DNA of 48,703 bases from Tannerellaceae bacterium (GTDB lineage Bacteria > Bacteroidota > Bacteroidia > Bacteroidales > Tannerellaceae): assembly GCA_031288515.1 (NCBI GenBank), contig JAITRG010000011.1, positions 1 to 48,703 of the forward strand. The letters are read 5' to 3'. The position numbers and the translations under genes are program-made. The notes below the pieces were generated by a model. That model did not search any database. It was given only the letters and a program-made list of their open reading frames with translations, and had not been told where the DNA came from. Shown piece by piece: positions 1,734-30,579 of the stretch (position 1 is its first letter; each line of letters starts with the position of its first letter).

Positions 1734-1984
1734 ACAGGCAATCATGGCTCATTTGATTACGAAAACATTCAAAACCGCCCTCCGGTTCTCCCCTTTCCGT
1801 ACAAAATGACTGTTAGCTGAAAATGCAAATTCCTTAAAATATGTCGGCAAATAAGCCTTAACGGGAGCATATTGTAAAACGGCCCGGCTTCCTTTCCTCC
1901 CCCTCCTTTTCCTCCCAATCTTATATTCTTCGTGTCTTCCTTTAAAACTTTTCTTCCAACCATCATACTGACAGACGGTTTTGC

Positions 1985-1992
1985 TACATTTG
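1985..1992 (+). promoter_or_regulatory. Bacteroidetes -7 box TACATTTG upstream of gmd
   Basis: Matches TAnnTTTG, about 40 bp upstream of the gmd start. Confidence 0.55.
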
Positions 1993-2034
1993 CATCTCAA
2001 ACGTAGGTTCTTTTTAAGTAAAAAGAGTATGAAT

Positions 2035-3126
2035 ATGAAGAAAATAGCATTAATCTCCGGTATAACCGGACAGGACGGGTCTTTTTTGGCCGAGTTATTA
2101 ATAGGGAAGGGATACGAGGTGCATGGGATTATACGGCGGTCGTCTTCTTTTAATACAGGGCGGATTGAACATTTGTATCTGGATGAGTGGGTGCGGGATA
2201 TGAAACAGCAGCGGCTGATAAACCTGCATTATGGGGATATGACGGATAGCAGCTCGCTCATTCGGATTATCCAGGCGGTACAGCCAGACGAGATTTATAA
2301 CCTGGCGGCCCAGAGCCATGTAAAGGTTTCGTTTGATGTACCGGAATATACGGCCGAAGCAGATGCAGTGGGCACATTGCGCATACTGGAAGCTATCCGT
2401 ATATTGAGGTTGGAGCAAAAAACGAAGATATATCAGGCCTCTACCTCCGAATTGTATGGAAAGGTACTGGAAACGCCACAAAGCGAGACAACGCCTTTCT
2501 ACCCCCGCTCTCCCTATGGGGTGGCAAAACAATATGGCTTCTGGATAACAAAAAATTACCGGGAAAGCTATGGTATGTTTGCCGTGAATGGTATTTTGTT
2601 CAACCATGAGAGCGAAAGAAGAGGAGAAACGTTTGTTACCCGGAAGATTACGCTGGCGGCTGCCCGTATCGTACAGGGATTCCAGGATAAACTTTATTTG
2701 GGCAACCTGGATTCGTTGCGCGACTGGGGATATGCTAAAGAATAAGTGGAATGTATGTGGTTGATGCTTCAATATCATGTCCCGGAAGACTTTGTGATTG
2801 CTACCGGCGAATATCATACGGTACGCGAATTTTGTACGCTCGCTTTTAAAGAAGTGGGCATTGAACTCCGATGGGAAGGCAAAGGGATTGATGAAAAAGG
2901 GATCGATGTCGCTACCGGAAAGGTATTGGCGGAAGTAGACCCGAAATATTTCCGTCCGGCGGAAGTTGAACAGTTGTTAGGAAACCCGTCCAAAGCAAAG
3001 ACATTATTAGGATGGAACCCAACCCAAACAAGTTTCTCCGAATTAGTAAAAATAATGGCTCATCATGATATGAAATTTGTAAAGAAACTTCATATGCGCC
3101 AAATGCCGGAAGAAAATAATGAATAA
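2035..3126 (+). pseudogene. gmd: GDP-mannose 4,6-dehydratase interrupted by a single in-frame TAA (2743-2745)
   Basis: [41 protein letters not shown]...[17 protein letters not shown]...; both halves are in the same frame and together give a full-length Gmd. Confidence 0.85.
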
Positions 3127-4192
3127 AAATGCTAAAATATATGTAGCCGGCCATTTAGGTTTAGTTGGTTCCGCCATCTGGAACAACCTCAAACAGAAAG
3201 GATACTCCAACCTGACGGGAAGGAACTCCCATGAGCTGGATTTGCGGGACAGTATGGCAGTAAAGGGTTTCTTTGATAAAGAGCAACCGGAATATGTGCT
3301 GGTAGCCGCAGCACAGGTGGGAGGTATCATGGCAAATACTACCTACCGGGCAGATTTTATTTATAATAATCTGCAGATACAACAAAATATAATTGGCGAA
3401 TCTTTCCGCCATCAGGTAAAAAAACTGTTGTTCCTGGGAAGCACCTGTATTTATCCCAAAGAATCGAAGCAGCCGATGAATGAAAATGAACTGCTTACCG
3501 CCCCTTTGGAATATACGAATGAACCTTATGCCATTGCAAAGATTGCCGGATTAAAGATGTGTGAAAGTTTCAACTTACAGTATGGTACGAACTATATCGC
3601 CGTAATGCCAACAAATCTGTATGGCCCGAATGATAATTTCGATTTGGAACGAAGCCATGTATTGCCGGCTATGATTCGTAAAATCCATCTGGCCAATGCA
3701 CTTAAAAAGCAGGATTGGGACGCTATTCGTAAAGACCTGAAGAAACGCCCGGCGGAGGGGGAAAATGGAGAAACCGCCAGGAAAGAGGCCATCGTACAAC
3801 TTCTGCAGAAATACGGTATTACAACGAATGCCGTTGAATTATGGGGTACAGGAAAGCCGTTGCGTGAATTTCTTTGGAGCGAAGAGATGGCCGACGCCTG
3901 CGTATATATAATGGAGCATGTTGATTTTAAGGATTTGGCAAAGGATAAGAACGAAGTTCGTAACTGCCACATCAATATAGGTACGGGAAAAGAAATTTCC
4001 ATCCAGGAGTTAGCCGGATTAATAGTGAAAACAATTGGTTATGATGGCGAGATTATCTTTAATGCAGAAAAGCCGGATGGCGCCATGCGTAAACTTACAG
4101 ACCCGTCTAAACTGCATTCTTTAGGTTGGCGTCACCGGATTGACATAGAAGAAGGAGTATGCAAATTATACAATTGGTATATCTCCTCCTGA
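3119..4192 (+). CDS. fcl: GDP-L-fucose synthase
   Basis: SDR fold GHLGLVGSAI, YTNEPYAIAKIAGLKMCESFN; overlaps the gmd 3' end by 8 bp. Confidence 0.93.
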   Translation: MNKNAKIYVAGHLGLVGSAIWNNLKQKGYSNLTGRNSHELDLRDSMAVKGFFDKEQPEYVLVAAAQVGGIMANTTYRADFIYNNLQIQQNIIGESFRHQVKKLLFLGSTCIYPKESKQPMNENELLTAPLEYTNEPYAIAKIAGLKMCESFNLQYGTNYIAVMPTNLYGPNDNFDLERSHVLPAMIRKIHLANALKKQDWDAIRKDLKKRPAEGENGETARKEAIVQLLQKYGITTNAVELWGTGKPLREFLWSEEMADACVYIMEHVDFKDLAKDKNEVRNCHINIGTGKEISIQELAGLIVKTIGYDGEIIFNAEKPDGAMRKLTDPSKLHSLGWRHRIDIEEGVCKLYNWYISS

Positions 4193-4210
4193 ATCACATC
4201 CCCATTTGAA

Positions 4211-4884
4211 TATGATTCCGAGAAAAACTGATTAGATATATAAGGATCTGCATGGAAAATATAAAGGAATCAGATTGTTTTTTATAAATATTTGTTTTAT
4301 ATTGCAAAATAGAAATGTTTGATTTATATTTGCAATATAAAATAATGACCTATCGGTAAATAATCCAATTAGTGAATTATTTATTAAGTAAAAGTTCGTG
4401 ATACATATATTAGTTGTATCTTATCTGGAGATTTAACCGACGCTTACTCAAACTATGCCTTGAGGCCGTCAGGATTTATTCTGACGGCCTTTTTGAGCTT
4501 CGCCCAGGATAGATATTTCAACACGGTCATCATAAACTTCGATCATTGTTACAGCCTCCGCTCATACTAACAGTCACGATGAAAAAGCGTATTAATAATA
4601 TATGATTTCGAGAAGAACTGATTAAATATATAATGATCTGCATGGAAAATATAAAAGAATCAGATTGTTTTTTATAAATATTTGATTTATATTGCAAAAT
4701 AGAAATATTTGATTTATATTTGCACTATGAAATAATAACCTGCCGGTAATTAATCCAATAATTGGATTATTTGTTAAGTAAAGGTTCATAATACCATACG
4801 TTATTTAATTGTATCTTAGATAGATTTAACCGACGCTTATTCAAACTATGCTTTAGGGCCGTCAGGATAAAAATCCCGACGGCC
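4211..4884 (+). repeat. 390-bp-period tandem duplication (two copies, about 4211-4495 and 4601-4888)
   Basis: tatgattccgagaaaaactgatta... at 4211 and tatgatttcgagaagaactgatta... at 4601; promoter, internal hairpins and terminator are all duplicated. Confidence 0.85.
4338..4495 (+). ncRNA. candidate structured small RNA, copy 1
   Basis: -7 TATATTTG 4325-4332 and -33 ATTG 4301-4304 (20-bp spacer); terminator stem GGCCGTCAG/CTGACGGCC 4464-4489 followed by T-run; no ORF. Confidence 0.6.
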
Positions 4885-4888
4885 TTTT
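4728..4888 (+). ncRNA. candidate structured small RNA, copy 2
   Basis: -7 TATATTTG 4715-4722 and -33 ATTG 4691-4694; terminator GGCCGTC..GACGGCC 4857-4884 plus T-run; conserved TTTAACCGACGCTTAnTCAAACTATGC. Confidence 0.6.
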
Positions 4889-4964
4889 AATTACTCTGAC
4901 TACTTTAGCAAATCCGCTATTTTCCCGGCGGAGCAGGGTTTTTCTTCAAGTATATCCAGGATAC

Positions 4965-5019
4965 CAGCCAACTATCCGTTTAACTAATTAATTTTGCGTT
5001 CGTAGTATTCTTATTTATT
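4965..5019 (+). repeat. 55-bp direct repeat, copy A of the nikR upstream/promoter region
   Basis: cagccaactatccgtttaactaattaattttgcgttcgtagtattcttatttatt; 54/55 identical to 12687-12741. Confidence 0.9.
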
Positions 5020-5190
5020 GTCGTAACGGACAAGTGAATGGTCGATACGAAAACCAGAAAACTCCTCGGGCGCAGGGAATGGCGGGATTGAGTTTGCCGC
5101 GACCTGCAAAGTAATACCCGTCCTGCGAAAATCAGCGAAAGACAACGGTCTGCACAAACGCCAATAAAAGCAAAATTTTCCTGTTCATAA

Positions 5191-7266
5191 TCAATCGTTT
5201 TTAAGATAGTTATCAAACCATTTCGTTATCTCGTCAAGGCGTTTGATACGGTTGACGGGTTTGCCCGAACGCGAGAGTTCGTGGTTTTCGCCTTCGAAAA
5301 TCACAATCCTGGATGGCACTTCAAAATATTGCAGCGCATAATACATTTGCAACCCTTCGACAAGCCAGCAGCGGTAATCTTTTTCGCTGTGGATGAAAAG
5401 TGTCGGCGTTTTCACCCTGTCGGCGTATTTCAGCGGCGACCTGTCCCACAGCAGGTCGTGATTTTTCCATAAATCAGTTCCGAAATAGGTATATGTGAAC
5501 GTATGTCCTATATCGCTTGTATTGCTGAACGTCAGCCACGACGAAGCGCTTCGCTGTGAAACGGCGGCCTTGAAACGGTCGGTATGCCCGATAATCCAGT
5601 TTGTCATCACGCCTCCGTAAGAACCTCCCGTAACTCCCAGGCGATTTTCGTCAATAAATCCCGACTGTTCAATTGCCGCATCGACAAAACTCATAAGATC
5701 GTTGTAGTCGACAGTCCCGATTTTCCCGCGTATATCCGCGAAATCATTACCCCGCCCGTTGCTGCCTGTCGGATTGGTGAACAAAACGGCATAACCTTGA
5801 CTGGCCCAATATTGCATCTCGTGGAAAAATACCGTGCCATAAGTGGATTTCGGGCCGCCGTGGATATCGAAAATTGCAGGATATTTCTTCCCCTTTTCAT
5901 AATCGGCAGGAGGCAGAACGTATCCGTTCAGTGTCCGTCCTTCCTCATTTGTGAAAGTTACCTCAAGCGGTTTCGCTATTTTATGCTCGTCAAACAACGG
6001 TTTGTTGATTGAAGTCAACTGCGTGAGAATGCCTTTTTTGTCGAGAAAATAAACCTCGCCGCCACGCTGCTCGACAAGCGCCGTAAGCAGGAAACCATCT
6101 TTGTATGGCAGAAACTCCGACACGGCTATCTGTCCTTTGGTCAGGACATTTACTTTTGCATCCCGGAATGCCAGATGTATCAGGTGGGCCTGGTCAACGA
6201 TCGTAGACACATAGAACAATCCGTCCTTATCGTGATGGAATCCCGACCTGCCTCCGGAGCCAATGTCGGTACCGACGCCACCCTGACTGTAGTACGAGCC
6301 GTCGTAAATCTCCGTGGCCTTACCGGTTTTCAGATTCAGTCGGTAAATTCCTGAATTTAAGTTCTTGTCTCGCTCAATACTGTGATTGATTGTCAGAACG
6401 ACCTCGTCGTTGTCAATAAAATAGAATCCTCCATAAGATACTTTGTCGAACAGCGGCAGTTCTTTCTTTGTCAGCGTTGCCACATCAAGCACGAACAGTT
6501 TGTTTCCAATATTCGGCGCTTTACCGTACCGGGCGTCCTGCCTGACGAAAATCAGCGTTTTCCTGTCGGGCGAAAGTTCAGCCTGCGACACGGATTCGAG
6601 CGTATCATTCAGCAGTGTGCGTTCTCCCTTGTTATAAAAATAAAGATGAGACCGCTGGCCGCTGACGTCGCCACGACCGTTCGACCAGAATGGCAACTCG
6701 TCGAAAATCCTGTAATTGCGATTCTCGTCCCGCTTTTTCAGGGCTTCCTGCCGATTACCGCCTGATTCGTTCAGAAACTGCTGAAAATGCTGGCTGTACG
6801 ATGCGGTATAGAAAAACCTGTCTTTGTCAATCCATTGAACCTGACCTGCCGAAAAAGGCAGGCGCAGCCATTCTGCAGCTTCCCCGTAGCCAGGGGCAAG
6901 CCTCTGAAATACGGTCAGTTCTTCGCCTTTGCGCACCTTTTCATGGTCTTTCTCATCCCTTACCGCGCGGAATATGATACCTGTTCCGCCTTCTTCAAAG
7001 AAGTAGTCCGACACATTCTGCGATATTTTCACGGCTTGACCGTCAATCAACTGATACAGGTTTCGCGTGTAAGCGTTTTCCTCTTTGCCGGGCTGGCTGA
7101 TCACAAAAAATATGTTCCCGTCTTTTTCTTTCAGGTTGGAAATACTTTTGACTTTGGTAAAAAAGTCAATTCCAACAGGTTTTTTTGCGCCTGGTTCCTG
7201 CCCTGCGGCGAAAGTTACGGACAGGATTAATAACGATATTACAATAAATAAATAGTTTTTTCTCAT
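5191..7266 (-). CDS. S9 family (prolyl oligopeptidase/DPP-like) serine peptidase, secreted
   Basis: Signal peptide; GVTGGSYGGVMTNWI nucleophile motif; HGGPKSTYG; terminal EGENHELSRSG. Confidence 0.9.
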   Translation of the reverse strand: MRKNYLFIVISLLILSVTFAAGQEPGAKKPVGIDFFTKVKSISNLKEKDGNIFFVISQPGKEENAYTRNLYQLIDGQAVKISQNVSDYFFEEGGTGIIFRAVRDEKDHEKVRKGEELTVFQRLAPGYGEAAEWLRLPFSAGQVQWIDKDRFFYTASYSQHFQQFLNESGGNRQEALKKRDENRNYRIFDELPFWSNGRGDVSGQRSHLYFYNKGERTLLNDTLESVSQAELSPDRKTLIFVRQDARYGKAPNIGNKLFVLDVATLTKKELPLFDKVSYGGFYFIDNDEVVLTINHSIERDKNLNSGIYRLNLKTGKATEIYDGSYYSQGGVGTDIGSGGRSGFHHDKDGLFYVSTIVDQAHLIHLAFRDAKVNVLTKGQIAVSEFLPYKDGFLLTALVEQRGGEVYFLDKKGILTQLTSINKPLFDEHKIAKPLEVTFTNEEGRTLNGYVLPPADYEKGKKYPAIFDIHGGPKSTYGTVFFHEMQYWASQGYAVLFTNPTGSNGRGNDFADIRGKIGTVDYNDLMSFVDAAIEQSGFIDENRLGVTGGSYGGVMTNWIIGHTDRFKAAVSQRSASSWLTFSNTSDIGHTFTYTYFGTDLWKNHDLLWDRSPLKYADRVKTPTLFIHSEKDYRCWLVEGLQMYYALQYFEVPSRIVIFEGENHELSRSGKPVNRIKRLDEITKWFDNYLKND

Positions 7267-30225: not shown

Positions 30226-30296
30226 TGTTCTATGGTGTAATGGCAGCACAACAGATTCTGGTCCTGTTTGTCTAGGTTCGAATCCTAGTAGAACAA
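30226..30296 (+). tRNA. tRNA-Gln (anticodon CTG)
   Basis: Acceptor TGTTCTA/TAGAACA; loop TTCTGGT; T-arm CTAGGTTCGAATCCTAG. Confidence 0.88.
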
Positions 30297-30579
30297 CATT
30301 CGACATTGATAATCAGTAATTTATTTGTTGAGGTTAAATCAAGTACCTTCCTGTTTTAGTTTCTATTCTTTGTATGAATCAAGCCGTTCCACTTTCACAA
30401 GCAAATGCGAGTTAACATACCGCTCTTCATAGCCGCCCAACTATACGCATACCTGTTAGCGTCGAGCTTGAGCGACAGCGCGTATCGCCATTAGCGCTAT
30501 TTTTGAAAGCCTGCCGAGCGGGTAAGCTGTAAGAGAAAAAAGGCATAAGATACAGGCCATTTGTTTCATACAGTATATA

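Follow-up and report, generated by a model that had tools for sequence, protein, structure and literature searches.

A putative lineage-restricted small RNA gene, duplicated in tandem in the 3' flank of gmd-fcl in a Tannerellaceae bacterium

Small RNAs that arise from a promoter of their own within an mRNA's 3' UTR region form a known class. In Bacteroides thetaiotaomicron, the 145-nt sRNA GibS and the sRNA FopS, the latter with 14 paralogues and a structure reported as deposited in Rfam (PMC11697453), are credited in the accounts on which we draw (PMC7366714, PMC11697453) with an R1 seed at the single-stranded 5' end, with targets and with binding by RbpB, a protein of the RRM class that binds sRNAs in Bacteroides (PMC11697453). 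What is more, tandem sibling sRNAs have been documented, namely OmrA/OmrB, PrrF1/PrrF2 and AbcR1/AbcR2 (PMC4211561). Here, we describe a tandem pair of candidate sRNA genes in a 48,703-nt stretch of DNA from a Tannerellaceae bacterium (hereafter, the window). As far as the above accounts describe GibS and FopS, the pair is like both in its length, loose fold, own promoter and terminator, and in having a Bacteroidales host with RRM-type RNA-binding proteins, and it is like FopS in being present in multiple copies; unlike GibS and FopS, with their seed, targets and RbpB binding, the window unit is known from its sequence alone. Differences from FopS lie in the two tandem copies being tied to the gene fcl and, going by PMC11697453, in the unit matching no Rfam family. 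With OmrA/OmrB, PrrF1/PrrF2 and AbcR1/AbcR2 the pair shares the tandem duplication of sRNA genes and their similar ends, whereas the organisms and sequences are unrelated and those siblings have known roles or targets. Finally, the unit is like the 3' UTR sRNAs in its own promoter and in a terminator that is predicted to be probably shared with the upstream fcl, and unlike them in that copy 2 carries a separate terminator of its own. The promoter-terminator unit of the window is real, conserved and recently duplicated in tandem, and we consider it a probable sRNA pair whose kind is already known.

The two copies occupy a gap of 1 kb between fcl (3119-4192, plus strand), which we take to be the GDP-L-fucose synthase gene from the known pairing of gmd with fcl, and a convergent ORF (5191-7266, minus strand) that looks like an S9-type peptidase gene. 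The open reading frame list of the window contains no credible ORF inside this gap, in agreement with the sequence-only reading of this DNA that preceded our analysis, and no conserved ORF lies within the predicted transcript, so that in this respect the unit is non-coding. Each copy is made up of a roughly 90-bp upstream box, a promoter, about 155 nt, a GGCCGTC hairpin and a T run, copy 1 extending over 4210-4493 and copy 2 over 4600-4888, both on the plus strand, with homologues at loci L012 and L013. The direct-repeat comparison confirms the two copies with a 390-bp period that had been proposed: they lie head to tail, align over 195 nt at 90% and then over 47 nt at 91% with a spacing of 393, and are 87% identical over the unit. 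A related genome (G011) has a single copy, whose flanks are matched by the sequence 5' of copy 1 and by that 3' of copy 2, so that one gene was duplicated in the window lineage. Moreover, since the copies are closer to each other than to the G011 unit (75-80%), the duplication is lineage-specific and postdates the split from G011. A DNA search of the whole genome finds the unit as two copies only, side by side; a mobile element was considered and rejected, given these two adjacent copies; where the unit is missing in another genome (G005), no target duplication was seen.

Several observations concern the surroundings. The 106-bp spacer between the copies (4494-4600, minus strand) looks like part of an HATPase_c_4 (PF13749) gene with a frameshift, matching at E 0.088, under the family cut-off, and may be a broken piece of such a gene. 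At about 4975-5030 the window still matches the leader that precedes a NikR-like gene of G011, with no such gene downstream in the window. Upstream of fcl, gmd (1981-3126, plus strand) has an in-frame TAA at about 2743-2745 (AKE*VECM versus AKDYVECM in a homologue), which would make it either a pseudogene or an assembly error. The sole gene reported by Rfam or ARAGORN in the window is a tRNA-Gln (CTG) at 30226-30297 on the plus strand; in another genome (G002), a tRNA-Gln adjoins fcl.

The promoters, at 4301-4332 in copy 1 and 4691-4722 in copy 2 (plus strand), both read ATTG-N20-TATATTTG and, as TATTG-N20-TATATTTG, fit the sigma-ABfr consensus TTTG/TAnnTTTG as given in PMC7366714. A scan of the 48.7-kb window for TTG-N17-21-TAnnTTTG returns seven sites, two of them inside the gap. 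In shuffles of the gap, the plus strand contains 0.065 such sites on average and at least two in 0.1% of cases, a value to be read with the two real sites being duplicates of one. Alignment of the four sequences (copy 1, copy 2 and the units of G011 and G006) leaves 31 of 35 promoter columns invariant, versus 63 of 137 in the body, and promoter identity to G011 is 94-96%, versus 84% at fcl fourfold sites; by these measures the promoter is the most constrained part of the unit. In other words, the Bacteroidetes-type promoter that had been assigned to each copy is present in the sequence, recovered by the motif scan and conserved. A general-purpose scanner for sigma-70 promoters and terminators gave no useful information on the unit. 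The intrinsic terminators lie at 4462-4494 (copy 1) and 4855-4888 (copy 2) on the plus strand, and as to the GGCCGTC hairpin and T run described earlier, the hairpins are indeed strong (-21.9 and -20.9 kcal/mol, z -6.4 and -5.4 versus shuffles), but the T runs are short (5 and 4). In G006, two compensatory pairs retain the hairpin. As no other terminator-like hairpin was seen between the fcl stop and 4462, the fcl mRNA probably ends at the terminator of copy 1.

From the positions of promoter and terminator, we predict transcripts of about 155 nt for copy 1 (4339-4493) and about 160 nt for copy 2 (4729-4888), both on the plus strand. The whole predicted RNA folds with a z of about -3.6, but without the terminator the bodies are no stabler than shuffles (z -0.57 in copy 1 and -0.65 in copy 2), and the stability of the whole RNA is therefore due to the terminator. 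Among the terminator-less bodies of all four sequences (z -0.57, -0.65, -2.19 and +0.15), three are no better than shuffles, the value of -2.19 belonging to G011. Pair counts delineate a 5' domain, in copy 1 (4348-4395, plus strand) an outer stem ACCT (4348-4351)/AAGT (4392-4395) around an AATCC hairpin, with one broken pair, and in copy 2 (4738-4785, plus strand) an outer stem ACCT (4738-4741)/AGGT (4782-4785) around the TAATCCAA hairpin, with two double changes in G006. The 5' stem ACCT/AGGT competes with the closing stem CGGTAAAT/ATTTAACCG of the sequence-only reading, which is favored by one two-sided change but has one broken pair each in copy 2, G011 and G006. The two double changes of the 4-bp 5' stem are thus slightly more than the one of the closing stem among these four sequences; that said, covariation outside the terminator is not significant, and neither stem goes convincingly beyond shuffles. 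A further hairpin, said to have diverged while still pairing, in fact contains mispairs in copy 1.

How far the unit extends was assessed in 19 genomes of the genus (MAGs), fcl being found in 16 of the 19. The closest relatives of fcl come from Tannerellaceae MAGs, and the genus appears to belong to that family. A DNA search gives clear homologues in G011 (79%) and G006 (78%). G003 possesses a divergent homologue with promoter, 5' block GTAGGTAATTAGTCC and terminator, and a leave-one-out HMM built without it matches the G003 locus exactly where expected (E 7e-4); the order of promoter, body and terminator is the same in all three. Directly behind fcl in G009 there is a terminator-centered remnant, scoring 46 bits with a model that includes the terminator and nothing significant once the terminator is left out of the model. 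In G005 (L018/L033, directly after fcl), a genome with an fcl roughly as close as the one in G011, the whole unit is missing with clean edges, an absence best read as a loss. Beyond the genus, a promoter-plus-body model without the terminator, run against 393 genomes of the order, gave besides the window only matches of 14-23 bits, taken as chance, and phage and plasmid collections contained no match to the unit. Among the new matches of the family covariance model outside the genus, those inspected (25-37 bits) were rejected, as they end in gene-end terminators of a like GC-rich type and have no RNA body.

A stretch of 27 nt in the 3' part of the body (4432-4458 in copy 1, 4825-4851 in copy 2, plus strand) had been singled out, by comparison of the paralogues, as almost unchanged and as a potential target-pairing seed. 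Between the copies it is indeed 94% identical, but in comparisons with the homologues it falls to 57-74%, where mainly TTTAAC and CTATG survive. Being conserved between the two paralogues only, it is not supported as a seed. There is a lesson here: a comparison limited to paralogues can make a seed look conserved when more distant homologues give it no support.

Would the same facts fit a unit that is not a functional sRNA gene? The most serious alternative, which we regard as possible if rather unlikely, is that of a dispensable or decaying transcription unit, in which the promoter fires but yields an RNA whose sequence is of little consequence. The function that is conserved would then be that of the terminator at fcl's 3' end, perhaps together with that of the promoter. 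The body diverges from that of G011 faster than fourfold sites, being 67-75% identical as compared with 84% at fourfold sites of fcl and 85% in the 3' flank. The body as a whole is therefore without strong purifying selection and may be changing quickly; it is also unstructured, its invariant columns do not cluster significantly, and the clean loss in G005 and the terminator-plus-remnant of G009 point in the same direction. On the other hand, body identity to G006 (67-70%) is slightly above that of fcl fourfold sites (61%), both copies are retained, and strong promoter conservation across three species and both paralogues is not what one would expect of a useless unit.

The remaining alternatives are far less probable. 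In G011 and G003 a plus-strand gene begins about 100-150 nt past the terminator, as it would if the unit were a 5' leader with an attenuator or riboswitch for the downstream gene. However, the unit lies behind fcl in every genome having it, and what follows differs per genome: judging from the translations, G011 has a NikR-like regulator, G006 an integrase-like gene, G003 a sigma54-type regulator and G009, beyond its remnant, NusB-like and YajC-like genes, while in the window the next gene is convergent. A fixed upstream and a varying downstream gene argue against a leader, as do the lack of conservation of the body structure and the Rfam scan of the window, in which no family, riboswitches included, matches the unit at the gathering score; Yfr13 and Ssr1, which appear at E<=10, were rejected as chance matches, and the G003 locus gives weak sub-threshold matches only, of which the two strongest end on the terminator. 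A leader is thus strongly disfavoured, and the preference of the sequence-only reading for an independent transcription unit over a riboswitch is supported, with the promoter as the best-conserved part adding to the argument. Only marginally less improbable is a small-protein or dual-function locus, in which the upstream box (4236-4322) would encode a 28-residue peptide (MYKELYGKYKRISLF... in G011). Over the first 48 nt, differences between the window and G011 (L012) do fall by codon position as 3, 0 and 11 for copy 1 and 2, 0 and 12 for copy 2, a periodicity like that of a peptide under selection. However, the ATG of G011 is replaced by ATA in both copies of the window, a TGA interrupts the frame in copy 2, the frame is shifted in G006, 125 genomes contain no convincing homologue, and the ORF stops inside the promoter, ahead of the predicted transcript. 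Least probable of all, we believe, is that the unit is the 6S RNA of this lineage, overlooked by the Rfam models. Namely, Bacteroides possesses a 6S RNA according to PMC7366714, yet neither the 6S (RF00013) nor the 6S-Flavo (RF01685) model matches in this genome; most genomes of the genus, however, lack the unit, the close relative G005 among them, and instead of a conserved rod with a central bubble it has a long unpaired 3' stretch and a terminator. With the Rfam check, 6S-Flavo included, no known family emerges; the unit is confined to at most four species of one MAG genus, with a body fold at chance and no significant covariation outside the terminator. Reading it as a new RNA family is only weakly supported, and reading it as a structured one is not supported.

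The explanation we favor, with somewhat more confidence than doubt, is that of a lineage-restricted, intergenic sRNA gene that is driven by sigma-ABfr, lies in the gmd-fcl 3' flank, has recently given rise to tandem siblings by duplication and most likely acts in trans. Each copy would be an independent sRNA gene with a sigma-ABfr-type promoter, an AU-rich, loosely folded body of about 125 nt and an intrinsic terminator, the operon mRNA probably using the same first terminator and the head-to-tail duplication of a single ancestral gene having produced the putative sibling sRNAs. The genome encodes two RRM_1 proteins, and a protein with this domain probably replaces Hfq as the partner. Given these proteins, the promoter and terminator of its own and the parallel with GibS and FopS, the likeliest mode of action would be pairing in trans with mRNAs. 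RNA pairing with the start regions of gmd and fcl gave no consistent signal, one of seven tests reaching z -2.3. A more ambitious version, which we put forward as doubtful speculation, is that of a new sRNA family of the Tannerellaceae that originated in the gmd-fcl 3' flank, whose siblings are diverging in their target specificity and connect the synthesis of surface fucose with further genes for the envelope or for glycans. If the unit is transcribed, uncultured gut symbionts would possess an undescribed pair of sRNA genes, and the locus would provide a small natural case of how, inside a single genus, an sRNA gene becomes tied to a metabolic operon, is duplicated and disappears again.
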